A DNA stretch of 64,000 nt from Pedobacter namyangjuensis (GTDB lineage Bacteria; Bacteroidota; Bacteroidia; Sphingobacteriales; Sphingobacteriaceae): positions 1,240,001 through 1,304,000 of the forward strand of contig NZ_QMHQ01000001.1 of the NCBI RefSeq assembly GCF_003313325.1, in the 5' to 3' direction. Of this stretch, positions 1 to 62,349 are shown one piece after another. The notes below the pieces were generated by a model, which was given only the letters and a program-made list of their open reading frames with translations, did not search any database and was not told the DNA's origin. How positions within the stretch are numbered: the stretch's first letter is position 1; each line of letters starts with the position of its first letter. Both the position numbers and the translations under genes were made by a program.

Positions 1-60
1 CCATTGCCAGCATTAGAAATCTCGGTAAATAAAAATACCAAGCAAAACCCTAACTACTAA
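1..60 (+). CDS. C-terminal tail of a SusD/RagB-like lipoprotein (partial)
   Basis: The first frame is open from the window edge to a TAA at 58-60. The 19 codons end in LEISVNKNTKQNPNY, which matches the usual SusD/RagB C-terminus (E-I-x-x-N-x-N-x-x-Q-N-P-x-Y). Only the tail is visible, so the family call rests on this short motif and on the context: secreted hydrolase genes follow on the same strand, as is normal for SusC/SusD loci. The two cyanophycinase-like genes downstream would then be the enzymes of this locus. Confidence 0.55.
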   Translation, partial: PLPALEISVNKNTKQNPNY

Positions 61-66
61 TATTTT

Positions 67-96
67 TTTCTGGGGAGGATAATCCCTTCCCAGAAA
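67..96 (+). other. hairpin between SusD tail and first cyanophycinase gene
   Basis: TTTCTGGGGAGG at 67-78 can pair with CCTTCCCAGAAA at 85-96. The T-run lies before the stem rather than after it, so this is not a standard + strand terminator. It may stabilise or separate parts of a susD-peptidase transcript. Confidence 0.35.
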
Positions 97-111
97 TTTA
101 TCCCAATCTTT

Positions 112-41897: not shown

Positions 41898-43340
41898 TTA
41901 CCAAACATAGGTACCGGCTGCGCCTGCTGGTAATGTTGTGGTTACCATTTTGCCATTGTTTTTAATATTAAAAACTTGGTCTGCATTGCTGGTATTCATC
42001 ACAATAAGTACTTTTTTACCATCTACATTCTTAAATGCTACGTTGCTTAACGTGCTACTTAAGGTAGAATTGATTCTAACAGAGCCTGGCCTTACAAATT
42101 TAGAAGCATGACCGATAACATAATATGCAACATTCCTGGTTACGGCTGGGGCAATGGTTATAGCGCCCAAACAATTTGTGCAACCTCCATCTGGGGTGTG
42201 CGGATTGTAATTTGCATCCGCTGCTAAGTTCCACTCTAATACGTTTCGGCTCCAGTTTCTAGTAGCGCCAACTATTAATGTACTTACATGCCATTTCAAA
42301 TCTTCGGCAAAATTACCAGGGCCACCAACCCATTGTTCTGTAAAATAAATGTGCTTATCGGGATAAGCATTACGTACTTGGCTAAGCGCCGAAATATTGC
42401 CGGCATATAAGTGAAATGCAGAACCATCTACATATTTGCTGGCGTCTGCATCAGCTAAAATTGTCATTGGATAATCGGGACGATCGGCATTGTGATCGTA
42501 GAGGATAATTTTTGTCTTTATGCCAGCTTGCTGAAAAGCAGGACCTAGAGCTGTTTTAATAAAATTAGCTTGGTCTTTAGCTTCCATTAATAAACTTGGC
42601 GTATTGCCCGGATGCAATGGCTCATTTTGGATTGTTATAGCATCAATAGTAATGCCTTGGGTTTTCATTGCCTCAATGTATTTAATAAAATACTTGGCGT
42701 AAGCTTGGTAATATTCTGGCTTTAAACTACCGCCTTTGTAGGCGTTGTTGGTTTTCATCCAAGTTGGCGGTGTCCAAGGAGAACCTAAAATTTTGATGTT
42801 CGGATTTACAGCAAGGATTTTTTTAAGCACAGGCACCAAATCAGTCATTTCCTCAGCAATAGAAAAATGCTCCATATTTACATCGGTTTGCCCAGCCGGA
42901 CGCTCGTTGTAAGTAAACACTTTCGCACTCAAATCTGATGCGCCAATACTTACGCGGATGTAGCTAACGCCGATCGCATTTTCCTCGGTAGAAAATAATT
43001 CCTTAATTAAAGCGTCTTTCTCGACTGAAGGCAACTCGTTGATTAAAGTTGCGCTTCCGCCAGTTAAAGTGTAGCCAAAACCATCAATAGATTGGTAGGT
43101 TTGGGTATCATCAACTTCAATGGTAGTGCTACTGTTATTTGTGGCAGTAAAGTTTAAAGCTACATTTTGTTTTTGCAGCAAAACTGATCTATCGCCTTTG
43201 GTTAGCCATAAAGCTACGTCGCTAGCTACGGGATTTGTAATAGGCGGGGTAGTGCCTCCATCTGTATTTTTAACAGCTTTTTTACAGGCGCAGGAAGCGA
43301 GAACAATGGAAAGGACGATACAGCAATTTAATAATTTCAT
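41898..43340 (-). CDS. GH30 glycoside hydrolase, lipoprotein (probable endo-beta-1,6-glucanase)
   Basis: A 480-residue lipoprotein (lipobox LASC). The (beta/alpha)8 barrel with attached beta-sandwich is typical of GH30. GFGYTLTGGSA and SYIRVSIGASDLS begin the barrel. ILGSPWTPPTWMKTN is a family motif, the acid/base is E240 in TIQNEPLHPG, and the nucleophile is E335 in YFTEQWVGG. GH30 subfamilies include beta-1,6-glucanases, glucosylceramidases and xylanases. With GH3 and SusC/SusD beside it, beta-1,6-glucan is the best guess. The start is 11 bp after the GH3 stop, so they form an operon. Confidence 0.9.
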   Translation of the reverse strand: MKLLNCCIVLSIVLASCACKKAVKNTDGGTTPPITNPVASDVALWLTKGDRSVLLQKQNVALNFTATNNSSTTIEVDDTQTYQSIDGFGYTLTGGSATLINELPSVEKDALIKELFSTEENAIGVSYIRVSIGASDLSAKVFTYNERPAGQTDVNMEHFSIAEEMTDLVPVLKKILAVNPNIKILGSPWTPPTWMKTNNAYKGGSLKPEYYQAYAKYFIKYIEAMKTQGITIDAITIQNEPLHPGNTPSLLMEAKDQANFIKTALGPAFQQAGIKTKIILYDHNADRPDYPMTILADADASKYVDGSAFHLYAGNISALSQVRNAYPDKHIYFTEQWVGGPGNFAEDLKWHVSTLIVGATRNWSRNVLEWNLAADANYNPHTPDGGCTNCLGAITIAPAVTRNVAYYVIGHASKFVRPGSVRINSTLSSTLSNVAFKNVDGKKVLIVMNTSNADQVFNIKNNGKMVTTTLPAGAAGTYVW

Positions 43341-43351
43341 ACGGCTAAAAT

Positions 43352-45667
43352 TTAGGGGGTGTAATTGAAGTTAATTTTTTGGTTGCCCAATTGAACAGTG
43401 AATTCGCCTTCGCCAGTTACGGTTTTTAATTCGGCATTTACATAAGCTATATCCTCTGGCTTAATTTTAAAGGTTACTGTTTTGCTTTCTCCGGCTTTTA
43501 AATCAATTTTATCAAAGCCTCTCAAACGTTTTACATCCGGACTGATATCACTCGCATATAAATCAGAAATGTACAATAAAACGCTTTCCTTTCCACTTAC
43601 TTTTCCGGTGTTGCTTACCTTAACCGATAGGCTTAGCGTTTCGCCTTTTTTTAGCGTAGCGCTACTTAATTTTATATCGCTGTAAGTAAAAGTAGTGTAG
43701 CTTAAACCATGGCCAAATACGTACTGTGGGTTGTAATCTGCATCGTAATTGTAAACGCCTTCGGTAGTTTCTCTAGACTCGGACGGTTTGTGATAATAGG
43801 TAAATAATGCGTTAGGAAATTGTGGGTACGTGTAAGGCAATTTTCCCGAAGGATTTACATCGCCGTATAATACATCAGCAATTGCATCGCCACCAAAGTT
43901 TCCTGGTAAATAAGATTGTAAAATAGCACTCATGTTTTTCTCAAACTTGCTTATTACCCTTGGCCTACCTTCATTTAAAACTAAAATAATGGTTTTACCC
44001 GTTGAAGCTAGTTTTTGTGCTAATTCGGTCTGTAAGTCAGATATATATAAGTCGCTTAAGTTGCCTGGTGTTTCGGTGTAAGTGTTTTCGCCTAAACAAA
44101 GTACTATAACATCTGCATTTTTTGCTGCTGCGATGGTTTCATCCATTTTGTCGGCATAATCTTCGAAGTATTTTCCATCCATTTTATAGCTAACACCTGG
44201 TAAATAAGTTACATTGCTAGCACCAACCTTATTTTGCATTGCTTTTACAATCGTATTGTAGTTTTTAGCGAATTCTTCAACTTTTTCGCCTTGCCAAGAG
44301 TAGGTCCAAGCGCCGTTTAAAGTACGCATAGAATTTGCATTAGGGCCAGTTACCAAAACTTTAGCCGTTTTGCTCAAAGGCAAAGCACTTTTGGTATTTT
44401 TTAACAGCGTAATAGATTCTGCTGCGGTGTTATAAGCAGCTTTTTCAAACTCCTTACTACCAAATTTCGGATAATCTTTAATGTTGGTGGTTGGTTTTTC
44501 GAATAGGTTTAACTCATATTTTACAATCAGGATTTTTCTAACTGCATCGTCAATACGTTCTTGTTTTACTTTGCCTTCCTTTACGGCTGCAATTAAATCA
44601 TCGCAAAAAGGCTCGTAGTTGTACGCAATCATAGACATGTCTATACCAGCATTAATAGCCATGATTACCGCCTCTTTATTGCTTGATGCAACGCGATCAC
44701 GCTTGTGCAAGTTTTCTATATCTCCCCAATCTGTAACTACTAAACCTTTAAAGCCCAATTCTTCTTTTAGTAATTTGGTAAGGATTTTATAATTGGCATG
44801 AACAGGAACGCCATTGATTAAACCAGAATTTATCATGATGGTTTTTGCACCTGCGGCAATAGCAGCTCTAAACGCCGGCAAATGATATTCTCGTAAAGCC
44901 TGGTCAGAAATAATTGCTGGAGTTCTATCTTTTCCAGAAACTGGAACTTGATAACCTAAAAAATGTTTTATGGAAGAAGCCACTTTAAAAGGATTTGATA
45001 CGTCGTTATCATCGCCTTCTAGACCTTTAATCATTTCCTTACCTAATTCGGTTACTAAAAATGGGTCTTCGCCAAAGCTTTCCCACTGGCGAGGAAATCT
45101 TGGGTCGGCGCCTAAATCTAAAATAGGAGAGAAGTTCCAAGGAATGGCACTTGCACGAGTTTCGTAAGCGGTAATGCTAGCACCATTTTTAACTAAGGCA
45201 CGGTTAAATGTTGCAGCTTGTCCAATTTGTTGTGGAAACATTGTTGCACCAACGGTATAGGTTGCTCCATGAACTTCGTCTACGCCATAAATTACCGGAA
45301 TTTTATTTTTGCCTTGTTTAGTTACAACGTTTTGTATTTCGTTAATAATATTATACCAAACTTGAGGAGTTCTTGCTCTGTTGTTTGAGGTATTTAAAAC
45401 CGAGCCAACGTGATATTGAAGCAAGGCTTTATCCATTGCTTTTTTATCTAACGTAAAAGGCTCATCGCTAGTGTAACGGTCTTTACCTGTTCCAATAACA
45501 TCTAAAGTAATTTGTGCCATTTGGCCAACTTTTTCTTCCAGCGTCATTTTAGCTAAAAGCGAATTAACCTTTTGGTCTATTGCCGTTTTACTTTGTTTCT
45601 GCTGTGCAAATAAGGTAGTAGCGGCTAAAAAAAGGAGAAGCGTTAGACTATAGTTTTTTATGTTCAT
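43352..45667 (-). CDS. bglX: GH3 beta-glucosidase
   Basis: A 771-residue secreted GH3 enzyme with a signal peptide ending near LFAQ. It releases glucose from the non-reducing end of beta-glucans or oligosaccharides. The catalytic nucleophile is D313 in GLVVTDWGD. GVDEVHGATYT, FPQQIGQAATFN and SSIKHFLGYQ are further BglX marks, followed by the alpha/beta sandwich and a C-terminal fibronectin-III-like domain (about 680-770). It has its own upstream region with two GATACGCTT boxes and a hairpin after susD, so it probably starts a second transcription unit with the GH30 gene. Confidence 0.94.
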   Translation of the reverse strand: MNIKNYSLTLLLFLAATTLFAQQKQSKTAIDQKVNSLLAKMTLEEKVGQMAQITLDVIGTGKDRYTSDEPFTLDKKAMDKALLQYHVGSVLNTSNNRARTPQVWYNIINEIQNVVTKQGKNKIPVIYGVDEVHGATYTVGATMFPQQIGQAATFNRALVKNGASITAYETRASAIPWNFSPILDLGADPRFPRQWESFGEDPFLVTELGKEMIKGLEGDDNDVSNPFKVASSIKHFLGYQVPVSGKDRTPAIISDQALREYHLPAFRAAIAAGAKTIMINSGLINGVPVHANYKILTKLLKEELGFKGLVVTDWGDIENLHKRDRVASSNKEAVIMAINAGIDMSMIAYNYEPFCDDLIAAVKEGKVKQERIDDAVRKILIVKYELNLFEKPTTNIKDYPKFGSKEFEKAAYNTAAESITLLKNTKSALPLSKTAKVLVTGPNANSMRTLNGAWTYSWQGEKVEEFAKNYNTIVKAMQNKVGASNVTYLPGVSYKMDGKYFEDYADKMDETIAAAKNADVIVLCLGENTYTETPGNLSDLYISDLQTELAQKLASTGKTIILVLNEGRPRVISKFEKNMSAILQSYLPGNFGGDAIADVLYGDVNPSGKLPYTYPQFPNALFTYYHKPSESRETTEGVYNYDADYNPQYVFGHGLSYTTFTYSDIKLSSATLKKGETLSLSVKVSNTGKVSGKESVLLYISDLYASDISPDVKRLRGFDKIDLKAGESKTVTFKIKPEDIAYVNAELKTVTGEGEFTVQLGNQKINFNYTP

Positions 45668-45955: not shown

Positions 45956-47380
45956 TTATCTAATATTCGGATTTCTATCCTGCTCTGCTTGAGGAATAGG
46001 GAAAAGTAACTTTACGGCAGTTACATTGTAATTTAAAAGATTGTTGTTGCCATCTCTTTGAGCATTCATAACTGCAATAGCACGATTGGTACGTAATAAA
46101 TCGAACCAGCGATGACCTTCGAAAGCTAACTCCAAACGGCGTTCTTTTTCTATTGCAGTGCGCATTAAAGCTTGACTGTTAGCCGGTGTTCCGCCCAAAT
46201 TAACACGTAAGCGAATTTCGTCTACTATGGTTTTTGCTGCAGACCATCCTGTTGCGCTTAACTCGTTCAATGCCTCAGCTTTTAATAACTTAATATCTGC
46301 CAAACGCAAAATGTAAGAGTTAGCCAAATCATCATTACGGTATTTGTTAATAAATGGATAGTTTGCCTTGCTCCAATAATCGTCAGACCAACCTTCTGTG
46401 TTCACATTTCTGAAACTAACGCTACTGTTTTTACGAATTAAATCACCTTCTGCATCAAAAGCAGCAATTAAATCGTTAGTTGGCGTGCAGAAACGTTTCC
46501 AACCAGTACCAACAATTACGCCGGTCATCCAGTTTCCACGTCCGCTTGGGCCACCCCAACCATCATACTGCATTTCCCAAATAGATTCGCTGTTGTTTTT
46601 GTGCGCACCATCAAACAAGTGATCAAATGAGCCTACTAAGCTGTAACCGCCAGATATAGTTGCATCAGCGTATTGCTGAACTTTTGCCCAATCTGGATTA
46701 GGTTTTGAAGCATAAACCTTTGCTAATAGAGCATTTACAATGCCTTTGGTAATGATACCTTTATTTGGCGCTGTAGCACGCACGTTTGGCAATGCCGATT
46801 CTAAATCTGCAATGATTTGTGCATAAACTTCATCTACCGTAGCACGAGGTTTTTGCATTTCTTCTAAATTGGTTGGCGATTTTAGAATTAGTGGAACACC
46901 ACCCCACAAACGAACCAAATGGAAATAGAAGTAAGCTCTTAATGTAGATGCTTCTCCTAAAATTTGGTTTCTTCTGCCGTTTGCATCTAAAGCCGGATCT
47001 TGGATATTCGGCACATTTTCCAATACCTCGTTGGCATTTTTAATGTTCGAATAAAGCCCGCTCCAATCTCTTCCAACGTTACCATTGGTAGCGTTTGCGG
47101 TAAATAAATCAATTTGAATGTTTGCAGGGTTATCACCACCAGCGTAAGCATTGTCTGAGGTTACATCACCGTTTACCATGTAATCCCAAATATGGTAATC
47201 GTTATACATGCCACCATAAGCACCTGCCATTAACTTTTCAGCACCTGCAGCGGTAGTAAAAGCAACGTCACCAGTAACTTGATTAAACGGCTGCTTGTCT
47301 AAAAAATCTTTTTTGCAACCACTTTGCACAGTAAGTACAATTGTTGCGGCCGCTACTAACGAATATATATTTAATTTCAT
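45956..47380 (-). CDS. RagB/SusD-family glycan-binding lipoprotein
   Basis: A 474-residue surface lipoprotein (signal ending TVQSGC). KKDFLDKQPFNQVTGDVAF is the usual SusD start, and LRAYFYFHLVRLWGGVPLI the TPR-type helix pair. ERRLELAFEGHRWFDLLRTNRA and the final IPQAEQDRNPNIR complete the pattern. It starts 11 bp after SusC and forms the glucan importer with it. Confidence 0.95.
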   Translation of the reverse strand: MKLNIYSLVAAATIVLTVQSGCKKDFLDKQPFNQVTGDVAFTTAAGAEKLMAGAYGGMYNDYHIWDYMVNGDVTSDNAYAGGDNPANIQIDLFTANATNGNVGRDWSGLYSNIKNANEVLENVPNIQDPALDANGRRNQILGEASTLRAYFYFHLVRLWGGVPLILKSPTNLEEMQKPRATVDEVYAQIIADLESALPNVRATAPNKGIITKGIVNALLAKVYASKPNPDWAKVQQYADATISGGYSLVGSFDHLFDGAHKNNSESIWEMQYDGWGGPSGRGNWMTGVIVGTGWKRFCTPTNDLIAAFDAEGDLIRKNSSVSFRNVNTEGWSDDYWSKANYPFINKYRNDDLANSYILRLADIKLLKAEALNELSATGWSAAKTIVDEIRLRVNLGGTPANSQALMRTAIEKERRLELAFEGHRWFDLLRTNRAIAVMNAQRDGNNNLLNYNVTAVKLLFPIPQAEQDRNPNIR

Positions 47381-47391
47381 CTTCTTAATTC

Positions 47392-50304
47392 TTAAAATCC
47401 AACATTAACACCAAATAAGAAACTTCTCGATTGCGGATAAGTTCCATAATCTACACCCATTGATGGGCCATTAGCAGAATTTACGTTAACTTCTGGATCT
47501 AGTCCCGAATATTTTGTAAACGTTAGCAAGTTGTAACCAGTGGCGAATAAAGTAACCTTACTCATTTTTAATTTTTCAAGCGCTGATGCGCCGAAACTAT
47601 ACGATAGTGTAGCTGTTTTTAAACGTAGGTAAGATGCGTTTTCTACAAAGCGACTAGAAGTTAACGAGTTTTCTGAACTTGCTCTTAACGCTTTAGGTAT
47701 GTTAGTGATCTGACCCGGAGTAGTCCATCTGTCTAAAACTGCCGCAGATTGGTTTTTAGAATCAAACATACCCTCTAAATCAATTCTAGAAGCATTGAAC
47801 AACTGATTTCCTTGTACCCCTTGGAAGAAAACATTTAGTCCCCAGTTGCCGTAAGTAAAGTTATTGGTAATGCCGTAAATAAATTTAGGTTGTGCCGAAC
47901 CAATGAAAGTTCTATCATCTGGATCTGCAGAACCTGTAACACCATTTCCGTTTAAATCTGCATATTGGGCGGCACCGTTTGTAGGATTAACACCAGTAAA
48001 CACATAGCCATAGAAACTTCCCAATGGTCTGCCAGCAACTACACGTACAGCATCATCACGTTCGTACAAAGACGCAAAGTTTAGAGATTGTGTGGTAGCG
48101 CCTAAATCAGTTACTTTATTTCTGTTGATTGAAAAGTTCAAATCAGTTGTCCATTGGAATTTTTCGCGGTCGAAGTTTTTAGTTGATAATACAAATTCTA
48201 AACCTTTGTTTTCCATCGAGCCTACGTTGTAAGCTTGGCTACCGAAGCCAGACGACGGAGGCAATTGAACGTTAATTAGCAAATCGTTGGTTTTCTTCAA
48301 ATATGCATCGGCAGTAAATGTAACCCTGTTATTAAACATCGTTAAATCTAAACCGATGTTTGTTTGCGTTGTTTTTTCCCATGATAAAGCATCGTTTGCA
48401 GGGTTTTGAAGATTGTATTCGCCTTGCGCATTTATACCATAAAGTTTCATGTAAGCGTAGTCTCCAATACCTTCATCATTACCAACTTTACCCCAGCTAC
48501 CGCGAATCTTTAAATCGTTAATCGTTTTGCTGTCTTTCATAAACTCCTCAGCAGAAATTCTCCAACCTGCAGAAACTGATGGGAAATAACCGAAACGGTT
48601 TTCCTTAGCAAATCTTGACGAACCATCGGCTCTAAAGTTCGAGCTGAACAAATATTTATTGTCGTAAGAGTAAGAAATACGAGCTAAATAGGATTGTTTG
48701 CTCCATTGTGCACGTTGTGGTATGGTTAACGCAACAGATGGTGCAATCGGGTTTCCAGAAGTATCAAAGAAACGAGTTCGCTCATTGTTGTTGTATTTCC
48801 AATCAGACGATTGTAAGGTGTAACCACCAGTTGCAGTAAATAAGTTTTTGCCGAAATTTTTAGTATAGTTTAAAATATTCTCATTTAACCAAACGTTTTC
48901 GTTTGTTCTGTTATCACGATAAACACCTCTTTCTTGGCGGCCATATGTAGTTAAGAAATTATCTGTAGCGTAACGATAAAAGTTCTTGTTCGAGTTTGTA
49001 CTGATAGTCGATTTGAAATATAAATCTTTGGTAAAGTTTACTTGAGCGCCAAACGCACCAATAAACCTAAAGTTTCTATTTCTGTTATCAGAACCGAAGG
49101 CTAGAGCTAATGGATTATCCCAACCACCAGCATTCGGAATGGTTGTATACTGTCCGTTTGGTTCAAAAATGCCAATAGTAGGAGGGGTAGTTAATGCACC
49201 TAAAATTACACCACCACGAGAAACACTGCTATTATCGCCAACGTCTATAGAATTGCTTGAGGTTAGTACCGCATTACCAGTTAATTTTAACCAAGAGGTA
49301 ATGTTTTGCGAGCCGTTGAAGTTAACGGTATAACGATCTAATTTTGCAGGAGATACTACACCTTTGTCTTGTTGGTAGCCACTCGAAAAATAATACTGAC
49401 CGCCTTTTACGCCACCCGACAAGGAAACTTGGTATTGATTCTGCGTTCCAGTACCAAAGGTTTCTTTTTGCCAATCTGTATTGCTATTGCCACCAAAACT
49501 AGTGTAACCCATTTCGGTCATCAAAGCTCTGTACTGATCGCTGTTTAACACATCTTGTTTCTGCCAAAAGTTAGAGAAACCCGTAAATGCGTTAAAAGCA
49601 ACTTGTAATTTACCTGCAGAACCTGTTTTAGTAGTGATTAATACTACACCGTTAGCACCACTAGAACCATAAATAGCCGCCGCAGAAGCATCCTTTAAAA
49701 TGGTCATCGACTCAATGTCGTTAGCGTTTATAAAGCTTGCATCTCTAGACGTTACTCCATCAATTACATATAAAGGACTATTTGAAGCCGTAATGGAAGT
49801 GTTACCTCTAATGCTGATAGAAATACCTGCACCCGGTTTACCAGATTGCGAGCTTACTTGTACACCCGCCGCACGACCTTGAATTGCTTGCAATGGATTG
49901 GTTATTGGTTGGTTTTCTAAATCTTTGGCAGAAACCGAAACAACCGAAGTTGTTAAATCTTTTTTGGTAGTTGTACCATAACCAATAACAACAACCTCGT
50001 TAAGCTGGTTGTTATCTTCAGAAAGCGTCGTGTTAATGGTAGTTCTATTGTTTACATTTTCTTCTATAGTTTTAAAACCAACAAATGAAAATGTTAAAAC
50101 CGCATTTGGAAGCGCTTTAAGTTTGTATGTTCCGTTTGTTTCTGTTGATGCACCGAACTGCGTGCCTTTTACTTTTACTGATACACCAGGAATCGGCAGA
50201 CCTTGCTGATCTTTAACCTGGCCAGTTATTGTAATTTCTTGAGCTAGGGCGAAACCTACACTACAAAAAAGAAGTACAATAAACAGCGTAAATTTTTTTG
50301 TCAT
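47392..50304 (-). CDS. SusC/RagA-family TonB-dependent transporter of the glucan locus
   Basis: A 970-residue outer-membrane receptor with signal peptide (ending FALAQ). A carboxypeptidase-like domain (about 22-100: ITGQVKDQQGLPIPGVSV) comes first. The plug follows, with VVVIGYGTTTKKDLTTSV, IRGNTSITASNSPLYVIDG and ILKDASAAAIYGSSGANGVVLITTK, then a barrel. No STN domain is present, so regulation does not go through an anti-sigma factor. Two GATACGCTT boxes lie upstream, and a sensor-regulator gene follows the same strand further upstream. Confidence 0.96.
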   Translation of the reverse strand: MTKKFTLFIVLLFCSVGFALAQEITITGQVKDQQGLPIPGVSVKVKGTQFGASTETNGTYKLKALPNAVLTFSFVGFKTIEENVNNRTTINTTLSEDNNQLNEVVVIGYGTTTKKDLTTSVVSVSAKDLENQPITNPLQAIQGRAAGVQVSSQSGKPGAGISISIRGNTSITASNSPLYVIDGVTSRDASFINANDIESMTILKDASAAAIYGSSGANGVVLITTKTGSAGKLQVAFNAFTGFSNFWQKQDVLNSDQYRALMTEMGYTSFGGNSNTDWQKETFGTGTQNQYQVSLSGGVKGGQYYFSSGYQQDKGVVSPAKLDRYTVNFNGSQNITSWLKLTGNAVLTSSNSIDVGDNSSVSRGGVILGALTTPPTIGIFEPNGQYTTIPNAGGWDNPLALAFGSDNRNRNFRFIGAFGAQVNFTKDLYFKSTISTNSNKNFYRYATDNFLTTYGRQERGVYRDNRTNENVWLNENILNYTKNFGKNLFTATGGYTLQSSDWKYNNNERTRFFDTSGNPIAPSVALTIPQRAQWSKQSYLARISYSYDNKYLFSSNFRADGSSRFAKENRFGYFPSVSAGWRISAEEFMKDSKTINDLKIRGSWGKVGNDEGIGDYAYMKLYGINAQGEYNLQNPANDALSWEKTTQTNIGLDLTMFNNRVTFTADAYLKKTNDLLINVQLPPSSGFGSQAYNVGSMENKGLEFVLSTKNFDREKFQWTTDLNFSINRNKVTDLGATTQSLNFASLYERDDAVRVVAGRPLGSFYGYVFTGVNPTNGAAQYADLNGNGVTGSADPDDRTFIGSAQPKFIYGITNNFTYGNWGLNVFFQGVQGNQLFNASRIDLEGMFDSKNQSAAVLDRWTTPGQITNIPKALRASSENSLTSSRFVENASYLRLKTATLSYSFGASALEKLKMSKVTLFATGYNLLTFTKYSGLDPEVNVNSANGPSMGVDYGTYPQSRSFLFGVNVGF

Positions 50305-50432
50305 AATCTTTTGGTTAGTTACAATTTATAATTAGTTGGAGTAAAGTTAAGTGCATTTGAGGGTTAAATGCAAGGACTTAAGGATGAAAATTTAGTGTAA
50401 CTTGTTGATAATTAGTTTATTGTGATTAATTC

Positions 50433-50441
50433 GATACGCTT
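50433..50441 (-). promoter_or_regulatory. GATACGCTT box C, upstream of susC (proximal)
   Basis: The same 9-mer as boxes A and B, about 129 bp upstream of the susC start. It is followed by CGGTACCC, and box D has AAATACCC at the same place, so C and D share GATACGCTTnnnTACCC. Confidence 0.6.
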
Positions 50442-50524
50442 CGGTACCCTAACTTACTTGTTAGCTTTAACGCTGATTTACAGTAGTTAAACACCAACTT
50501 AAAGTTGCGGACATTACTTAACAT

Positions 50525-50533
50525 GATACGCTT
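50525..50533 (-). promoter_or_regulatory. GATACGCTT box D, upstream of susC (distal)
   Basis: Fourth copy of the 9-mer, 92 bp from box C and about 221 bp upstream of susC. A short palindrome CAACTTAAAGTTG lies between C and D at 50495-50507. The box is 69 bp past the stop codon of the sensor-regulator gene. Confidence 0.6.
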
Positions 50534-50601
50534 AAATACCCTTGATTTTTTTTGTAAGATAGAATCTTAAATAACAAAAAAATGACAGACTTGACTGGGC
50601 T

Positions 50602-52503
50602 TTAATCTAAAACCAAAAGACTCCAACCGTTTTTATTCGCTTTTTTGAGGGATGATTTACGCTCCTCCATAATGGTTTTTATACGGCTACCGTAAGTCCA
50701 GCAGGTACTTTGCCTAATGTTTAGCACTTCAGAGAGTTTATGAGAAGAGATCTTTCCTTTGGTAGAGTAGATCAGGAAGATCATGTAAAATGCTTTGTTT
50801 ATCGGAATGCGGGTGTTATGGAAAACGGTGTAACTCGTTACCGATTCTTCGTAGGCGCATTTGCTACAACGCCTACTGTGCGCAACATGACCTGGATAAA
50901 AATGTGTGTTTTTGCACTTTTTGCATACGTAGCCATTTTTCCATTTCAGCTCTGCTAAAAACTCGTTACAACTTTCCTTATCAGGGTAGATTTTACTGAA
51001 CTCTTCAAAGTCAACATCCGCACTCATTACCCGGTCTCTGGTAACTTTCTCTACGTTAATTTGTAACTCATGATTGTCTTGTTCTAACAAAACATTCATT
51101 CGTGAAATCTCTTCGGCTTGTTGCAACAAGCGTTCGTTAACTTTTAGAAGTTCCTCATTTTTAGCCTCGATAATTATCGATTTATGGAAAACCTCTTTTG
51201 TCCGCTCATTAACTTGTCGTTCTAGTTCTTTGTTCAGGTTGTCTTTAAGTTTGCCGTTAACGGCCATTTGCTGTATAATCTGGCGTTGTGCTTTTTCCTT
51301 TTTTCTTTTAAGGATGCTCACTTTATCTCCTATGGCAAACGAGAGAAATACCATTTCGAGTACAAAACAGAAGCTAAGACTATAGTAAGAAATTACACCA
51401 AAGTTTAGCCAGCTAATACCTAGCATAATTAATAGCTTTAAAACAAAACCAAAAAACAGGAAACTGTAGCCAAGAACAAAGAAACGAGCCGGCTGATAAC
51501 CTTTTCTGAAAATATAAATACCCGTAAAGAACGCTACCGAAAGCGGTATGAATTCTAAAAATTTATAATTGAAAAGATTTTGATCAAAAACTAAACAATA
51601 AACAAAAAATAAAGATCTAACAGCGATGAGACCGATGATTAATCGGTTAAGTTTAGGTGCTTTTGCTTTTACAAACAATAGTTCTCTGGTAAAAAGCAAG
51701 GCGAAAATGCTTGTTGCGTACAGAAAGAATGCGTAGGCAATCTGATTCCAGCCGGGTGCATTGGGCCAAAGGTATTGGTAGGCAATGCCATCGTTGCTCA
51801 TCTCAAAAAGACCAACACTTATATTGTACAATACATAAAAAAGATATTGTTTTTGGCGCATGGCGATGAACATGATGAGGTTGTAAAAGCTAAAAACCAA
51901 AATCATTCCGTAAAAAATACCGAAATAGAAGTATTCGTCTAACGCATAGGAGATAAACCAGTTAACCGATCTTAAAACGATAATTACGTCGGAAATTTGA
52001 GAAGAGCGGATTTTAAAATAATAAACTTGGGTTTGATCATGATCATTCGCTAGGTAAACCTCAAAATTTTTATGGCTTAACGTTCTGTCGGCAAAGTTTA
52101 GTTTATCGCCTAGCTCTTTTACGATATAGCTTCCATCACCCTGTGGCAAGTAAACCGTTATATGATCTATAGTTTGGTCAAAAAATTCTAGTAGAAACCT
52201 GTTATCGGCTTTGCTATTATGTTTTATTTTGATTTTTGCCCAGTAGCTTGTATTTAGGGAAGTAGTTTGAGGCGTGCTTCTTTCGCTAGGTTCAAATTTA
52301 CTACTAAATGCTTCGCTTTTAATTTGCTCAAATGTGAAACTGTTTTTTTCGTCTTTTAAAACTTCTACTTCTGCAAAATTAAAGATGTGTTGTTTAACGT
52401 TATCATTAATCTGTACAGGTTTTTGCGCCCATAAATTACCGCAAAAAAGCCAAAATATAAAAAAAGGAAGTGCTTTAACTGCACTAGAAATTAACCTAAC
52501 CAT
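50602..52503 (-). CDS. 7TMR-DISM membrane sensor fused to an IS1595-type transposase DNA-binding end
   Basis: A 633-residue protein. A signal peptide (1-26) is followed by an extracytoplasmic 7TMR-DISMED2-like beta domain (about 30-185), which probably binds a carbohydrate. Seven membrane helices lie at about 190-395 (7TMR-DISM), then a coiled coil (about 398-490). The C-terminus (about 500-620) matches the front end of IS1595-type transposases: FEEFSKIYPDKESCNEFLAE, zinc cysteines C527/C530 and C546/C549, then SVTSYTVFHNTRIPINKAFY and the helix-turn-helix HKLSEVLNIRQSTCWTYGSRIK. No DDE domain follows. It lies upstream of the SusC/SusD/GH3/GH30 locus on the same strand. I infer a one-component regulator of that locus. 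A non-regulatory role is possible. Confidence 0.85.
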   Translation of the reverse strand: MVRLISSAVKALPFFIFWLFCGNLWAQKPVQINDNVKQHIFNFAEVEVLKDEKNSFTFEQIKSEAFSSKFEPSERSTPQTTSLNTSYWAKIKIKHNSKADNRFLLEFFDQTIDHITVYLPQGDGSYIVKELGDKLNFADRTLSHKNFEVYLANDHDQTQVYYFKIRSSQISDVIIVLRSVNWFISYALDEYFYFGIFYGMILVFSFYNLIMFIAMRQKQYLFYVLYNISVGLFEMSNDGIAYQYLWPNAPGWNQIAYAFFLYATSIFALLFTRELLFVKAKAPKLNRLIIGLIAVRSLFFVYCLVFDQNLFNYKFLEFIPLSVAFFTGIYIFRKGYQPARFFVLGYSFLFFGFVLKLLIMLGISWLNFGVISYYSLSFCFVLEMVFLSFAIGDKVSILKRKKEKAQRQIIQQMAVNGKLKDNLNKELERQVNERTKEVFHKSIIIEAKNEELLKVNERLLQQAEEISRMNVLLEQDNHELQINVEKVTRDRVMSADVDFEEFSKIYPDKESCNEFLAELKWKNGYVCKKCKNTHFYPGHVAHSRRCSKCAYEESVTSYTVFHNTRIPINKAFYMIFLIYSTKGKISSHKLSEVLNIRQSTCWTYGSRIKTIMEERKSSLKKANKNGWSLLVLD

Positions 52504-57063: not shown

Positions 57064-57636
57064 ATGCCAATTTATACAACAACGTCTGATTTTGAGCTCC
57101 TAGACTTTATGCGCTCTGGAGACCATGGTGCTTTTGAAGAATTGTACGATAGGTATAAAGTTGCGCTTTATCTTCATGCTAAACGAATGTTGCAGGATGA
57201 AGACGAAACAAAAGATGTAATTCAGGAAGTTTTTACTACACTTTGGCATAAAAAAGATGAGTTATTTATTTCTTCATCAGTGAAATCTTACTTGTATAGC
57301 GCAGTGCGAAACAAGGTGCTTAATATTCTCGCACATCAAAAATTTGAGGTGAAATATCTAAATTCTTTACAGCAGGTGATAAACCTAGGCGAAATGAGTT
57401 TAGAGGAAAGCTTAATGGAAAGAGAACTTATTAATATTATAGAAAGGGAAGTTGATTTATTGCCGGCCAAAATGCGAGAGGTTTTTGTGATGAGTAGAAG
57501 AGATCACCTATCTCATAAAGAAATTGCCGATAAATTAAATATTTCTGATAAAACGGTTAAAAAACAAATCGGCAACGCAATTAAAATTTTACGCCCCAAA
57601 ATCAATGTTTTTATTACCATGTTTTTTCCGTTATAA
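57064..57636 (+). CDS. ECF RNA polymerase sigma factor (sigma-70 family, Bacteroidota type)
   Basis: A 190-residue ECF sigma factor. Region 2 (about 12-85) contains GDHGAFEELYDRYK and DEDETKDVIQEVFTTLW. Region 4 (about 125-180) has LPAKMREVFVMSRRDHLSHKEIADKLNISDKTVKKQIGNA, the helix-turn-helix for the -35 box. It is followed by its FecR-type anti-sigma and an STN-containing SusC, so it should turn on that SusC/SusD operon when substrate is bound outside. Confidence 0.95.
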   Translation: MPIYTTTSDFELLDFMRSGDHGAFEELYDRYKVALYLHAKRMLQDEDETKDVIQEVFTTLWHKKDELFISSSVKSYLYSAVRNKVLNILAHQKFEVKYLNSLQQVINLGEMSLEESLMERELINIIEREVDLLPAKMREVFVMSRRDHLSHKEIADKLNISDKTVKKQIGNAIKILRPKINVFITMFFPL

Positions 57637-57659
57637 TTTTTTTTCTTTACTCTACTACC

Positions 57660-57686
57660 AAGGCTAATGTTAATTGTCTTAGCCTT
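57660..57686 (+). other. hairpin between sigma and anti-sigma genes
   Basis: AAGGCTAA (57660-57667) pairs with TTAGCCTT (57679-57686). No T-run follows, so it may be a processing or stability element that tunes the ratio of sigma to anti-sigma. Confidence 0.5.
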
Positions 57687-57713
57687 ACAAAACACAATTT
57701 AGTTTTGTAAGCT

Positions 57714-58865
57714 ATGCAAAAAATAGACGCAAAATCACTTTTAGAAAAGTATAAGTTAGGCTCATTAACTCCGGAGGAGAAGAATCTTTTAAAGGTTTGG
57801 TATGCAAAAACGGCTAAAGATAATGCCTTGATTATTGACGAGTTTGAATTGGAAAAAAATTTAGACGAAGCTTGGTCGAATATTGCTAAAGCAACCCAAC
57901 CTAAAAAATACAATCGATTCACAATTTGGGCTCGTCTATCTGCCGCAGCGATATTCGTTTTGGTAGCAGGTATCTGGTTTTACTTATATCAAGCAAAATC
58001 TGCTGTTGGTAAATCTGTACAAACACAACAACAAATAGCGGTTATAAAGCCAGGTGGCTACAGAGCTACGCTAACTTTAGCCAACGGCAATGTTATTACG
58101 TTAGACGACGCAAATGATGGGAAGTTGGCCGATCAAAATGGAATCGTGGTAACAAAAACTAAAGATGGCCAATTAATTTATAGTGTAAGCAACCGCCAAA
58201 ACGTAAAACCAACGTTTAATACTATTTCTACACCAAAAGGCGGGCAATATCAAATTCATTTGCCAGATGGTAGTAAAGTTTGGTTAAATGCAGCGTCATC
58301 ATTAAAATATCCCACCTTTTTTAGCGGTAGCCAACGTAAGGTTAACTTAACAGGGGAGGCGTATTTCGAGGTCTCGAAAGCTAATTCAGCAAATGGTAAA
58401 AACATGCCATTTGTTGTAGCAAGCCAAAATCAAGAAGTAACCGTATTAGGTACTCACTTTAATGTGAATTGCTATACTGACGAGGACGCCAGCAAAACAA
58501 CGCTGTTGGAAGGCGCAGTTAATGTAACGAGTTTTAAGAAAGACAATATTAAAACCGTAAGCCTAAAGCCGGGGCAGCAAAGCGAAGTAAATTTATACGG
58601 ATTAAAAGTCGCAAACGTGAATGCCGAAGAAGCTATAGCTTGGAAAAACGGAGTTTTCTTGTTTAAAGATGCCGATTTAAAAACTGTGATGAGGCAAATT
58701 AGCAGGTGGTACGATGTTGATGTAGCATACGAAGGCAAATTACCTAACAACGATTTCTCTGGAGAAATAAGCCGTAACCTAAACCTTAATCAAGTTTTCG
58801 AAATCCTGAGCTTTTATAAAGTACACTTTCGTGTAGAAGGGAAACAAATAATAGTTAGTCAATAA
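57714..58865 (+). CDS. FecR-family anti-sigma factor
   Basis: A 383-residue inner-membrane protein. A cytoplasmic sigma-binding N-terminus (1-70) is followed by one membrane helix (about 74-92). The FecR domain (about 165-275) contains TPKGGQYQIHLPDGSKVWLN and LTGEAYFEV. A C-terminal DUF4974 domain (about 310-383) contains DADLKTVMRQISRWYDV. The last domain contacts the STN domain of the downstream SusC and passes the signal inward. Confidence 0.95.
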   Translation: MQKIDAKSLLEKYKLGSLTPEEKNLLKVWYAKTAKDNALIIDEFELEKNLDEAWSNIAKATQPKKYNRFTIWARLSAAAIFVLVAGIWFYLYQAKSAVGKSVQTQQQIAVIKPGGYRATLTLANGNVITLDDANDGKLADQNGIVVTKTKDGQLIYSVSNRQNVKPTFNTISTPKGGQYQIHLPDGSKVWLNAASSLKYPTFFSGSQRKVNLTGEAYFEVSKANSANGKNMPFVVASQNQEVTVLGTHFNVNCYTDEDASKTTLLEGAVNVTSFKKDNIKTVSLKPGQQSEVNLYGLKVANVNAEEAIAWKNGVFLFKDADLKTVMRQISRWYDVDVAYEGKLPNNDFSGEISRNLNLNQVFEILSFYKVHFRVEGKQIIVSQ

Positions 58866-58902
58866 TCTAAATAAACCAAAAACAACCAAAAACAAACAAA
58901 TT

Positions 58903-58926
58903 ATGAAGAACGCCTTTAAGACTTAG
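58903..58926 (+). other. seven-codon open frame in the SusC leader
   Basis: ATG followed by six sense codons (MKNAFKT) and TAG, located between FecR and the leader hairpin. It could be a leader peptide, but a chance frame is equally possible. Confidence 0.25.
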
Positions 58927-58944
58927 GTTATTGGGCAAAAAAAA

Positions 58945-58974
58945 TCCGCAGAAGTGTTGGCGCACAACTGCGGA
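58945..58974 (+). promoter_or_regulatory. GC-rich leader hairpin upstream of STN-type SusC
   Basis: TCCGCAG (58945-58951) pairs with CTGCGGA (58968-58974), with a further GTTG/CAAC pair inside. No T-run follows. It lies in the 190-bp space between FecR and SusC, where an ECF promoter or RNA processing site is expected. Confidence 0.45.
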
Positions 58975-59055
58975 AAAGCCGAATTAATCCTTTCCAGAAA
59001 CTGGATAAAACAATTTTGAGAACTATTTAAGTATTAACCCAAACATTACAAAAGT

Positions 59056-62000
59056 ATGCATTTTAATACGATTACTAAAGCTGTGCGAAAAACATGGCTA
59101 CCGCTTAAATTATTAAAAATCATGAAGTTAACATCGCTTCTAGTGTTTTTGGCTATTTTGAAGGCTTCAGCTAGCTTCAGCCAAATTAACTTAAAGGAAA
59201 ACAACGCTCCTTTAGAAAAAGTTTTGTCAAGTTTAAAAAAGCAAACCGGATATACTTTTTTTTACGATACAAAAGACGTGCGTACAGCGAAAATTACTAT
59301 CAACCTTAAAAACGCAACATTAGAAACAGCATTAGATGAGTTTGCCAAACAGTTGCCCTTAGATTTTAAAATTGTTGGAAACACGGTGCTGCTAAAGCGC
59401 AAAGAAAAAGAAGCGTCATTAAACAGTACGCTAAAAGTTACCGCTATTGTTAAAGGTCGGGTTTTAGACGATAAAGGTTTGCCAATACCTGGCGTAAACG
59501 TTACATTGTCTGGCGCAAATTATAACCAAAACAAAGCCTCTGGCGATAATGGTGATTACAGTTTTAGTGTGCCAACAGCAGGTACTTATACGCTTACAGC
59601 TAGTTACATCGGCTTCGATAAATTTAGCCAAACGATAACAGTGGGCAATAGCGAAATTGTTAGAAATATTACGCTTAACGCATCAACACAAAACTTAGAC
59701 GAAGTTATGGTTGTTGCCTATGGCAAACAAACCAAGGCATCGTTTACAGGGTCCGCTAAAGAATTAAAAGGAGCCATAATTAATGGCGCACCAAGAGCAA
59801 GTTTACAAGAAAGTTTGCAAGGTAATGTTGCAGGTGTGGTGTCTAGTAATGGTTCTGGTCAGCCAGGTGCATTGCCAAACGTACGTATTCGTGGTATTGG
59901 TTCTGTAAGTGCTGGCAGTGGCCCTTTATATGTTGTAGATGGTATTCCAATTGATGCCGGCCAAGTTTCTGGTTTAAACAGTTACGATGTAGAAAGTGTA
60001 ACTGTTTTAAAGGATGCTTCTGCAGCGTCAATTTATGGCTCTAGAGCTGCTAATGGCGTAATTCTGGTAACTACTAAAAGCGGCAAAGCTGGCAACACAG
60101 TGGTTTCGGCTTCTGTACAATCTGGTGTAAATAATATTATACAAGTAAAAGGAAGCAAGCTTTTAAATACTGCCGAAATGGTGGAACTTTTGAAAGAAGG
60201 TTGGGTAAATAAAGGTAACGACCCAAACACTTTTGCAGCCGAAATGACCTTGCAGAATGTAAACCAAAATGTTAATACAGATTGGTTCGATTTGCTAACT
60301 CGTACTGGTAACCACACCCAAGCAGATCTTTCTATTAGTGGTGGTAACGAAAAAACAAAATTCTACGTTTCTGGCAGTCATTACATTGCCAAGGCTCCAG
60401 TTTTAGGTAGTGATTTTACTAGAAGTACAGCTAATGTTAGGTTAAGCAATCAAGTAACTGATAAATTATCAATCTCTGGGGGTTTACAAGTAAATAACCG
60501 TAACAACCATACGCAAGCAGACGGAAGTACCTTCGGTAATCCAATAAGAATGTATGCTTTAACACAGCCGTTTTTAAAAGCATATAATGATGATGGTACT
60601 TACGATTTTAGTTATTTTAACCGTTATAATCCTATTGCGCAGGTTAAAGAAAGCTATACCACTAGAAAAGCTTATGCTTTAATCGGTAATTTCTTAGCCA
60701 AATACGAAATCGTAAAAGATTTAACTATCGAAAATCAATCGAACATTAACTTTTTGTATGGCGAAGATTTTGAGTATAATAAATCTGGTGTTGGTACTTC
60801 TCGTACAGATGGTGGTAGAGCTACCTCAAGTACAGATCGTACTACTAATTGGGTAAACACTTCTATTTTGCGTTACAACAAAACTTTTGGAGATATTGGT
60901 TTAAAAACTTACGTTGGTTACGAGGCACAAAAAGTTACAGAAACAGGCAACTTTGTACAAAGACGTAATTTCTTGCCAAACACTTACACTTTAGATAATG
61001 CTTCAATTTTAATGGATGGCGGACAAGATGCTACTGCTAATTCGCTGAACTCTGTTTTTGCGAATGCATCGGCAGATTATCAATCTAAATACTATTTAAG
61101 TGCATCGTTTCGTAGAGACGGTTCATCAAGATTTGGTTCTGATAGACGTTACGGTAACTTCTGGTCATTAGGCGCTTCTTGGAATGTTATCAAAGAAGAC
61201 TTTATGAGCGATCAAAAGATTTTCTCTGATTTGCGTTTGCGTACAAGTTATGGTGTAAACGGAAATCAAGACATTAGTAATTTCGCTTCAAGAGCGTTGT
61301 ACACAGCTACAGCTTATGATAATTCTCCGGGTTTAATTTTCTCTAACTATGGTAACAACCTTTTAACATGGGAAAAAAATAAACCATTTAACATCGGTTT
61401 AGATTTTGGTGTACTTAAAAACAGATTAACAGGAACCTTCGAATATTATTCGAGAGAAAGTTCTGGCTTGTTGCTAAGCAGACCAATCTCTGCAACTAAT
61501 GGCCTAACAAGTTATTTAGACAATGTTGGTGCTATAAAAAATAGTGGTTTAGAGCTAGAATTAAACAGTATCAATATTCAGCCAAAAGGCGATGGTTTAG
61601 AGTGGAGAACTAGTTTTAACATCTCTACCATGAAAAACAAAATTACCGAGTTAACTAGTCCAATTATTACTGGTGGTTACAACCGATTTGTAGGCGGAGA
61701 TTTTTATCAAATCTATTACCCAGGTTATGCAGGAGTAAATCCAGATAACGGCGAAGCTTTGTGGTATGTTGATGAAACTAAAACTCAAACAACAAACGTT
61801 TATGGCTCGGCAAAGCAATTTAACCAAGGTAGTGCCTTGCCAGATTTCTTTGGGGGTTTGACCAATACTTTTAGCTACAAAGGCTTCTCATTAAGCTTCC
61901 AACTTTACTTTACCGTAGGAAACAAAATTTACGATAATTACGGTGCAAGTGGTGCATCTGACGGTTCGCAAGGTTTTGCACCAACAGCTAAAATGACCCG

Positions 62001-62349
62001 TTATACTTACGAAAATAGATGGCAGAAACCTGGTGATGTTACCTTACAACCTAAAATTGTTTACTTGGGTACACAATCGGGCGCTTCAAGTCAGCAGTCA
62101 ACCAGATTTTTATACGATGGAGACTATGTTCGTTTAAGAGAGGTAACCTTGGCTTATCAATTGCCAAACAAATGGTTAAAGTCTACTAAAATATCGAGTG
62201 CTAGTTTGTATTTCAGAGCAAACAACTTATTCACCTATATCAAAGATGATAGGGTGACTTTCGATCCAGAAGTTGGCATAGATGGGTTTGCCGATAAAAA
62301 CATACCGGTTTACAGAACAGCTTTGTTAGGGTTAGATGTTAAATTTTAA
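59056..62349 (+). CDS. STN-domain SusC/RagA-family TonB-dependent transducer
   Basis: A 1097-residue outer-membrane receptor. The signal sequence is long; MKLTSLLVFLAIL at residue 23 could be the true start. It is followed by a secretin/TonB N-terminal STN domain (about 45-112: LEKVLSSLKKQTGYTFFYDTKDV), a carboxypeptidase-like domain (about 125-205), the plug (VRIRGIGSVSAGSGPLYVVDG, ILVTTKSGKAG) and the barrel. The STN domain links it to the FecR protein encoded upstream, so uptake and gene induction are coupled. Substrate unknown. Confidence 0.96.
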   Translation: MHFNTITKAVRKTWLPLKLLKIMKLTSLLVFLAILKASASFSQINLKENNAPLEKVLSSLKKQTGYTFFYDTKDVRTAKITINLKNATLETALDEFAKQLPLDFKIVGNTVLLKRKEKEASLNSTLKVTAIVKGRVLDDKGLPIPGVNVTLSGANYNQNKASGDNGDYSFSVPTAGTYTLTASYIGFDKFSQTITVGNSEIVRNITLNASTQNLDEVMVVAYGKQTKASFTGSAKELKGAIINGAPRASLQESLQGNVAGVVSSNGSGQPGALPNVRIRGIGSVSAGSGPLYVVDGIPIDAGQVSGLNSYDVESVTVLKDASAASIYGSRAANGVILVTTKSGKAGNTVVSASVQSGVNNIIQVKGSKLLNTAEMVELLKEGWVNKGNDPNTFAAEMTLQNVNQNVNTDWFDLLTRTGNHTQADLSISGGNEKTKFYVSGSHYIAKAPVLGSDFTRSTANVRLSNQVTDKLSISGGLQVNNRNNHTQADGSTFGNPIRMYALTQPFLKAYNDDGTYDFSYFNRYNPIAQVKESYTTRKAYALIGNFLAKYEIVKDLTIENQSNINFLYGEDFEYNKSGVGTSRTDGGRATSSTDRTTNWVNTSILRYNKTFGDIGLKTYVGYEAQKVTETGNFVQRRNFLPNTYTLDNASILMDGGQDATANSLNSVFANASADYQSKYYLSASFRRDGSSRFGSDRRYGNFWSLGASWNVIKEDFMSDQKIFSDLRLRTSYGVNGNQDISNFASRALYTATAYDNSPGLIFSNYGNNLLTWEKNKPFNIGLDFGVLKNRLTGTFEYYSRESSGLLLSRPISATNGLTSYLDNVGAIKNSGLELELNSINIQPKGDGLEWRTSFNISTMKNKITELTSPIITGGYNRFVGGDFYQIYYPGYAGVNPDNGEALWYVDETKTQTTNVYGSAKQFNQGSALPDFFGGLTNTFSYKGFSLSFQLYFTVGNKIYDNYGASGASDGSQGFAPTAKMTRYTYENRWQKPGDVTLQPKIVYLGTQSGASSQQSTRFLYDGDYVRLREVTLAYQLPNKWLKSTKISSASLYFRANNLFTYIKDDRVTFDPEVGIDGFADKNIPVYRTALLGLDVKF

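Follow-up and report, generated by a model that had tools for sequence, protein, structure and literature searches.

A membrane receptor with an IS1595-type DNA-binding end and a conserved pair of sites: a probable one-component activator of a SusC-SusD-GH3-GH30 locus in Pedobacter namyangjuensis

Results

The locus and the regulator gene

We analysed a stretch of 64,000 nucleotides from Pedobacter namyangjuensis (RefSeq assembly GCF_003313325.1, contig NZ_QMHQ01000001.1, positions 1,240,001 to 1,304,000; hereafter the window, with positions counted from its first letter) and focused on a putative regulator gene on its minus strand (50602..52503, ATG start, 633 residues). The gene heads a same-strand run that encodes a SusC-like TonB-dependent receptor (47392..50304, minus), a SusD-like lipoprotein (45956..47380, minus), a glycoside hydrolase (GH) of family GH3 (43352..45667, minus) and another of family GH30 (41898..43340, minus), all assigned by Pfam. 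With its SusC-SusD pair and carbohydrate-active enzymes, the run is a polysaccharide utilization locus (PUL), and from GH30 and GH3 its substrate is predicted to be a beta-glucan. The gap between the regulator and SusC measures 297 bp and holds no called gene.

The N-terminal part of the regulator forms a 7TMR-DISM receptor. Pfam matched the extracytoplasmic sensor domain 7TMR-DISMED2 (PF07696) at residues 45-177 (51973..52371, minus; E 2.6e-29, 102.4 bits against a cut-off of 22) and the seven-transmembrane (7TM) domain 7TMR-DISM_7TM (PF07695) at residues 190-394 (51322..51936, minus; E 1.5e-45, 156.1 bits against a cut-off of 29). The C-terminal part resembles the start of an IS1595 transposase. 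Zn_ribbon_IS1595 (PF12760) matched residues 508-551 (50851..50982, minus) with E 2.1e-5 and 24.9 bits, slightly below its gathering score of 25.4, and in the precomputed Pfam annotation this domain is present for some homologues and absent for others. The NCBIfam model of the IS1595 transposase (NF033547) matched residues 563-618 (50650..50817, minus), which include the IRQSTCW helix, with 26.7 bits against a cut-off of 75. Since this match is restricted to positions 1-57 of the 215 in the model, it covers the helix-turn-helix (HTH) part and not the catalytic part: no DDE catalytic domain was matched beyond model position 57, and the protein ends at residue 633. In the same protein Pfam gave no match to a histidine kinase, a receiver or an AraC-type output at E up to 1, nor to a Sigma70 or FecR domain. 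No inverted repeats were found bracketing the gene, the nearest being a 15-nt pair of 87% identity within the frame.

In the AlphaFold2 model of the whole regulator (40 rows, mean predicted local distance difference test (pLDDT) 79, predicted template modelling score 0.54), the N-terminal domain is rich in beta structure, seven long helices follow from residue 180, and the C-terminal domain stands apart. The last of the seven is one unbroken helix from 370 to 480, and its cytoplasmic portion (residues 395-480; 51064..51321, minus) is likely a coiled-coil dimer stalk. A break at residues 476-497, with pLDDT below 50, lies between the stalk and the C-terminal domain. Modelled alone (39 rows), the C-terminal domain reached a pLDDT of 90 and consisted of two helices, a small beta ribbon and four further helices, with the HTH among these.

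In an alignment of 40 regulators including the query (identities to the query of 48-87%), the four cysteines of the ribbon (527, 530, 546 and 549) are invariant, as are R597, Q598, T600, C601 and W602, and the stalk helix is strongly conserved in parts. When the 7994 best candidates were scored, at least 1471 proteins matched the whole regulator at E <= 0.001. The C-terminal 134 residues matched 1209 proteins, with DISM_7TM present in 120 of 120 among the matches listed. Homologue records are named 'chromosome partitioning protein ParA', 'transposase' or '7TM diverse intracellular signaling domain-containing protein', names that mislead as to the nature of the regulator.

The original prediction, made on the letters of the window, had described a single 633-residue frame with a 7TMR-DISM sensor, seven helices, a zinc ribbon and an HTH. 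Pfam, NCBIfam and AlphaFold2 agree on that layout, and the proposed comparison of the C-terminal part with Zn_ribbon_IS1595 gave the expected match, just below the cut-off, together with the HTH match of NF033547. Its further claim that the DDE domain and inverted-repeat ends are missing also stands, the former from the extent of the NF033547 match and the latter from the absence of bracketing arms. The protein is confirmed as a 7TMR-DISM receptor that continues in a long helix and ends in a zinc ribbon-HTH of IS1595 type, without a DDE domain. By these predictions, it unites a sensor and a domain of DNA-binding type in one membrane protein.

Linkage to SusC and GH30

The regulator keeps its place beside uptake genes in its relatives. 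We considered 114 sensor-like frames from 113 fetched loci and the window; the window's own gene is counted twice (also as locus L001), and the set includes the own-genome relatives L002 (short anchor), L003 and L004, the matches of the last two ending before the ribbon, and an extra frame in L044. The next same-strand gene was SusC in 82 of the 114, at a typical distance of 290 bp. In 81 loci, comprising those of the 80 best among 217 relatives and the window, genes were labelled by phmmer comparison with the proteins of the window; GH30 occurred somewhere in 79, SusC in 66 and GH3 in 23. Both counts bear out the expected link between homologues of this layout and uptake loci.

The original prediction also stated that the adjoining locus has no ECF (extracytoplasmic function) factor. 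The window does contain one, in a set with FecR and a second SusC (57064-62349, plus strand). This set lies 4.5 kb from the regulator on the opposite strand and looks like an ordinary ECF/anti-sigma unit, separate and divergent from the regulator's locus.

A conserved pair of sites before SusC

Aligning 53 gaps of Pedobacter-type relatives revealed two blocks of the form GGTATTnAAGCGTATC, in gene orientation. In the window, the upstream copy (copy 1, GGTATTTAAGCGTATC) lies at 50525..50540 and the downstream copy (copy 2, GGTACCGAAGCGTATC) at 50433..50448, both on the minus strand and 92 bp apart. A general repeat finder, run without any pattern, reported the same two copies as a 25-nt repeat (D2) with a spacing of 92, along with seven other short families. 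We describe the putative operator as two copies of GGTA-N4-A-N-CGTATY or a near variant.

For counting, we used 84 gaps: the 82 with SusC next, less L001, plus three in which a small spurious frame lies between (L021, L087 and L096). GGTA-N4-A-N-CGTAT[CT] was present on the forward strand in 71 of the 84 and on the reverse strand in none. The remaining 13 had weaker forms such as GGTG, GGTT and GTTA, and one of them (L025) had a reverse near-match overlapping a forward match. Species overlap among the locus sets, and 13 pairs of gaps were identical; their removal left 71 distinct gaps, a number that equals the previous count by coincidence. The two best forward matches were 90-93 bp apart in 71/71 distinct gaps, while 42 of 1420 shuffled gaps had them 89-94 bp apart. 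Both copies reached at least 10 bits in 64 of the 71, with a matrix built from these same gaps.

Because of this circularity, we made a held-out test, in which the matrix came from 56 gaps, assigned by the locus list to Pedobacter and its close relatives, and was applied to the other 28 (25 distinct), mostly from Chitinophaga, Dyadobacter, Mucilaginibacter, Siphonobacter, Deminuibacter and Nubsella, with one (L028) from the window's genus. The spacing was 90-93 bp in 28/28, and the better copy exceeded the best of 100 shuffles in 28/28. The weaker copy did so in 20 and failed in eight (L024, L026, L084, L085, L089, L090, L093 and L096). The conserved pair, a putative operator, adds a cis-element to the earlier reading of the sequence.

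Columns anchored on copy 2 showed further conservation, with TTG at +75..77 and TA..TTT at +99..105, 21 nt apart, a layout that we take to be the Bacteroidetes -33/-7 promoter consensus. In the window, the predicted promoter occupies 50342..50373 on the minus strand (TTG at 50373-50371, 21 nt, and TAACTTTA at 50349-50342). Copy 2 ends about 59 bp before the predicted -33 element, which would place the two copies some 105 and 197 bp ahead of the predicted transcription start, the position of which is guessed. A second block of CTAATTATCAg type follows copy 2 (50405..50415, minus; +33..43 from copy 2) and is about as conserved in the 84 gaps as the promoter columns; it is possibly the site of another regulator. 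A similar ATCA block was seen between the operator copies in the 84 gaps.

Specificity at the genome scale

A single copy of the pattern is uninformative, since the 4.33-Mb genome of P. namyangjuensis had three matches and a backwards control had two. Two of the three are the copies in this gap; the third (C12:641899) is within a coding frame and was taken as chance. The strict pair was far more selective, with 17 matches in 201 genomes, one each in 17 genomes, and none for the backwards control. By comparison of coordinates, 16 of the 17 lie 23-98 bp beyond the end of the matched sensor frame. In the 17th genome (G066) the pair is 1.9 kb beyond the sensor frame, and SusC begins 145 bp after the pair. 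An insertion lies there between sensor and pair (L250 2405-3852; also L020), carrying an rve-domain transposase of 299 aa and a 183-aa partner frame. Thus, the insertion separated the sensor from the pair but not the pair from SusC.

Sensor matches of nearly full length (E under 1e-180) were present in 61 of the 201 genomes; 17 of these 61 had the strict pair, against none of the other 140. The 44 sensor genomes that lack it have weaker sites, different sites or none. The 81 loci total 1.45 Mb, in which 126 sites scored at least 15 bits, and 114 of them precede SusC. Seven were in called coding frames, three of these truly in the gap, within the small spurious frames of L087 and L096. The other five were in different gaps: three before GH30 (in L107, and as a 92-bp pair in L111), one before a GH5 gene (L102) and one before an unassigned gene (L077). 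Where SusC is not the next gene, the pair can precede GH30 instead, as in L111.

The zinc ribbon-HTH as a module

The same C-terminal domain occurs behind other sensors. In locus L117, a 1090-aa frame joins seven Reg_prop stretches and Y_Y_Y to the same ribbon-HTH (24.6 bits), with no kinase, receiver or AraC-type domain by Pfam; near relatives of this version occur in Desertivirga brevis and in a Daejeonella metagenome-assembled genome. It has a pair 79 bp apart in its own upstream gap and another 78 bp apart in the following gap, while the DISM regulator of the same locus has a pair at 89 bp. A short version of 274 aa (L193) is divergent from SusC, with a pair 79 bp apart in the divergent gap; its ribbon gave no Pfam match, yet it shares 50-51% identity with the domain in the window protein. 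In these short forms an N-terminal membrane helix is apparent by eye.

P. namyangjuensis itself carries a short-anchor paralogue of 291 aa (L116 6438-7313, C12) with the same ribbon-HTH and a GH88-type gene 2 bp downstream. A site was sought upstream of it and not found, and two matches of the 79-bp pair pattern in this genome, each with one mismatch, were both within coding frames and were rejected.

To describe the paralogue sites we used 25 sensors (from 20 fetched loci, less L237 and L247, which gave no frame with RQ[SN]TCW, plus L118, L119, L120, L194 and L195). Within 600 bp downstream of 10 of the 25, two [ACG]CGTAT sites stood on the same strand 75-95 bp apart; none had such a pair on the reverse strand, and 54 of 5000 random windows of the paralogue loci had one. 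The spacings were 76, 78, 79, 89 or 90 bp, with an extra 84 or 85 in two loci, and one helical turn separates the class near 79 from that near 90. One half of the site was constant, mostly AARCGTAT, and the other was of TGNG, TGTT or GGTA type. The zinc ribbon-HTH is an output module, and the site pairs track this output domain, not the sensor.

Two loci had two sensors of this class. In L118 they are directly in tandem and are sisters in the tree described below; in L120 they are about 9.5 kb apart with SusC-SusD-GH3 between them, and are not sisters.

Origin of the DNA-binding end

We built an unrooted tree of 95 ribbon-HTH domains (151 before near-copies were removed) on 135 columns. All 82 regulators fell on one side of a single branch (support 99/98) and the 13 insertion sequence (IS) rows on the other, in 98% of bootstraps; the IS branches are long, the bootstrap had not settled, and two IS rows are short frames of 138 and 148 aa. 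The Reg_prop form and both short forms nest among the DISM regulators. Regulators and IS rows on opposite sides of one branch fit a single capture of the IS1595 end, which would have been followed by exchange or loss of the sensor. NF033547 matched in 81 of the 201 genomes, in 32 above its cut-off, many of the weak matches being the regulators themselves; in the genome of P. namyangjuensis the same search gave no full IS1595 match.

We also considered the operator as a relic of IS ends. The terminal repeats of two IS1595 element types (G007; G127/G099; L183-L188) contain GGTR-N5-RCG in register with the operator. The motif is in only 3 of the 11 elements with proposed repeats (those two types), and the full transposase of highest identity among those fetched (G327, L189; 37%) lacks it, so this origin was not adopted. 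We had spotted the motif by eye before counting it, and we regard it as a lead and not as a claim; it may be coincidence.

Discussion

A probable activator that would bind from the membrane

We consider it likely that this 7TMR-DISM sensor with an IS1595-type end is a one-component activator of the SusC-SusD-GH3-GH30 run, acting through the two conserved sites in the gap. The original prediction had proposed a one-component regulator with the captured transposase part as its output, and the ribbon and HTH matches, together with the linkage to uptake loci, support that proposal. Binding of the C-terminal domain to the paired site and activation from it are likely, as judged from the sequence and its conservation.

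In the mechanism that we propose, a glycan product, predicted to derive from beta-glucan, would be sensed in the periplasm by DISMED2. From there the 7TM bundle and the long helix would relay the signal, and the helix would keep two DNA-binding domains joined. These two domains could then occupy both operator copies with the protein still in the membrane, and the bound regulator would recruit RNA polymerase to the SusC promoter.

The conservation of the domain hints at how the site may be read. In 21 rows chosen from three clades, the IRQSTCW helix is unchanged while several ribbon residues and one residue of the HTH region (I to K) vary. From this constant helix and the clade-varying ribbon, we infer that the HTH would read the constant CGTAT half. 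The zinc ribbon, for its part, would read the variable half (GGTA, TGNG or TGTT types), as the pattern suggests.

An alternative mode of action, raised as a second option in the original prediction, is that proteolysis in the weak linker frees a soluble factor. The low pLDDT of residues 476-497, between the stalk and the DNA-binding domain, would suit a cleavage site. However, the strongly conserved parts of the stalk fit a helix that transmits a signal in place, and the short relatives appear to retain a membrane helix at the N-terminus, so that we regard proteolytic release as unlikely.

The same protein could also be a repressor or anti-activator, with a loop that keeps the paired sites closed until the glycan comes. 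Two sites about 92 bp apart would suit such a loop, as would spacing classes one helical turn apart. But neither site covers the predicted -33 element. Both are found upstream of it, a position that favours activation, and repression seems to us decidedly improbable.

In a further alternative, the paired sites would serve another factor or an RNA element, and the C-terminal domain of the sensor would have lost DNA binding. The fixed strand of the sites and the second conserved block nearby can be read in this way. Against this, pairs stand beside three sensor architectures that have the same output domain, and the strict pair was found nowhere else in the 201 genomes. The pair of L193 is in a divergent gap, that of G066 remains by SusC after the insertion, upstream of a predicted promoter, and the HTH core and the zinc residues are invariant. 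We give this explanation only a small chance. Finally, an accident of gene prediction or assembly, in a receptor gene with a transposon insertion at its end, is practically excluded: IS1595 matches do exist in the family, but the conserved fusion, recurring in the C-terminal matches and in the alignment of 40, already refutes it, and the regulators are apart from the IS rows in the tree, no inverted repeats bracket the gene and its own genome has no full IS1595 match.

Returning to a membrane-bound activator, a broader scenario can be offered tentatively, and we hold it to be somewhat less probable than its opposite. These glycan-locus regulators of Bacteroidota would share a single origin, the joining of a captured IS1595 head to a membrane sensor, and would since have swapped sensors (7TMR-DISM, Reg_prop/Y_Y_Y, short anchor). 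They would keep the two-site grasp of the transposase, with a membrane-held dimer that pairs same-facing operators 79 or 90 bp apart, so that the pairing of ends would have become a transcription switch.

If the proposed activator is real, it would add a further class of PUL regulator with a named operator, and its targets could be found by pattern. It would also be a bacterial instance in which the DNA-binding domain of a transposase has been domesticated to serve a transmembrane receptor as its output.

Comparison with known systems

PULs of Bacteroidota have been described with hybrid two-component systems (HTCS), SusR-like or ECF/anti-sigma regulators. We found no account of a regulator of the present kind in a partial coverage of the literature (open-licence papers, largely titles and the starts of abstracts). 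In the available passages of a paper on a fungal-wall PUL of Chitinophaga pinensis (PMC10449523), the words GH30 and 7TM are absent. The reading that we favour is that these proteins would form a new class of PUL activators, one-component and membrane-bound, which use the domesticated DNA-binding domain of a transposase and have a named putative operator.

HTCS, the hybrid two-component systems of Bacteroidetes PULs, combine a histidine kinase, a receiver and an AraC-type output. They are also membrane-spanning single-chain PUL regulators, and the L117 relative has the same Reg_prop/Y_Y_Y type of sensor. However, neither the window's protein nor that of L117 has a histidine kinase, a receiver or an AraC-type domain by Pfam. 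7TMR-DISM receptors usually have kinases, cyclases and the like as outputs; DISMED2 and the 7TM domain are common to both, whereas here the output is a transposase-type DNA-binding domain. With IS1595 transposases the regulator has in common the HTH and, by a match just below the Pfam cut-off, the zinc ribbon (508-618 here for the two), but it lacks the DDE domain and bracketing inverted repeats and is conserved beside one type of locus. CadC/ToxR-type proteins are membrane one-component regulators with a winged helix at the cytoplasmic N-terminus and one transmembrane helix. Membrane-anchored DNA binding, predicted here, is the likeness; the present protein differs in having its zinc ribbon-HTH at the C-terminus and seven transmembrane helices.

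The nearest system in principle, likened here by its published description, is ChiS, a glycan sensor that binds DNA directly (PMC8092284). The paper reports its DNA-binding domain from genomes of proteobacteria, classes it as a cryptic variant of the HTH and finds it only at the C-terminus, and a figure legend gives 7TMR-DISM among the sensors joined to it (PMC8092284). Both systems would have a glycan sensor and direct DNA binding, with an output domain also found with 7TMR-DISM. As far as that description goes, the regulator presented here differs in its IS1595-type zinc ribbon-HTH, its occurrence in Bacteroidota, its tie to SusC/D and its paired operator.
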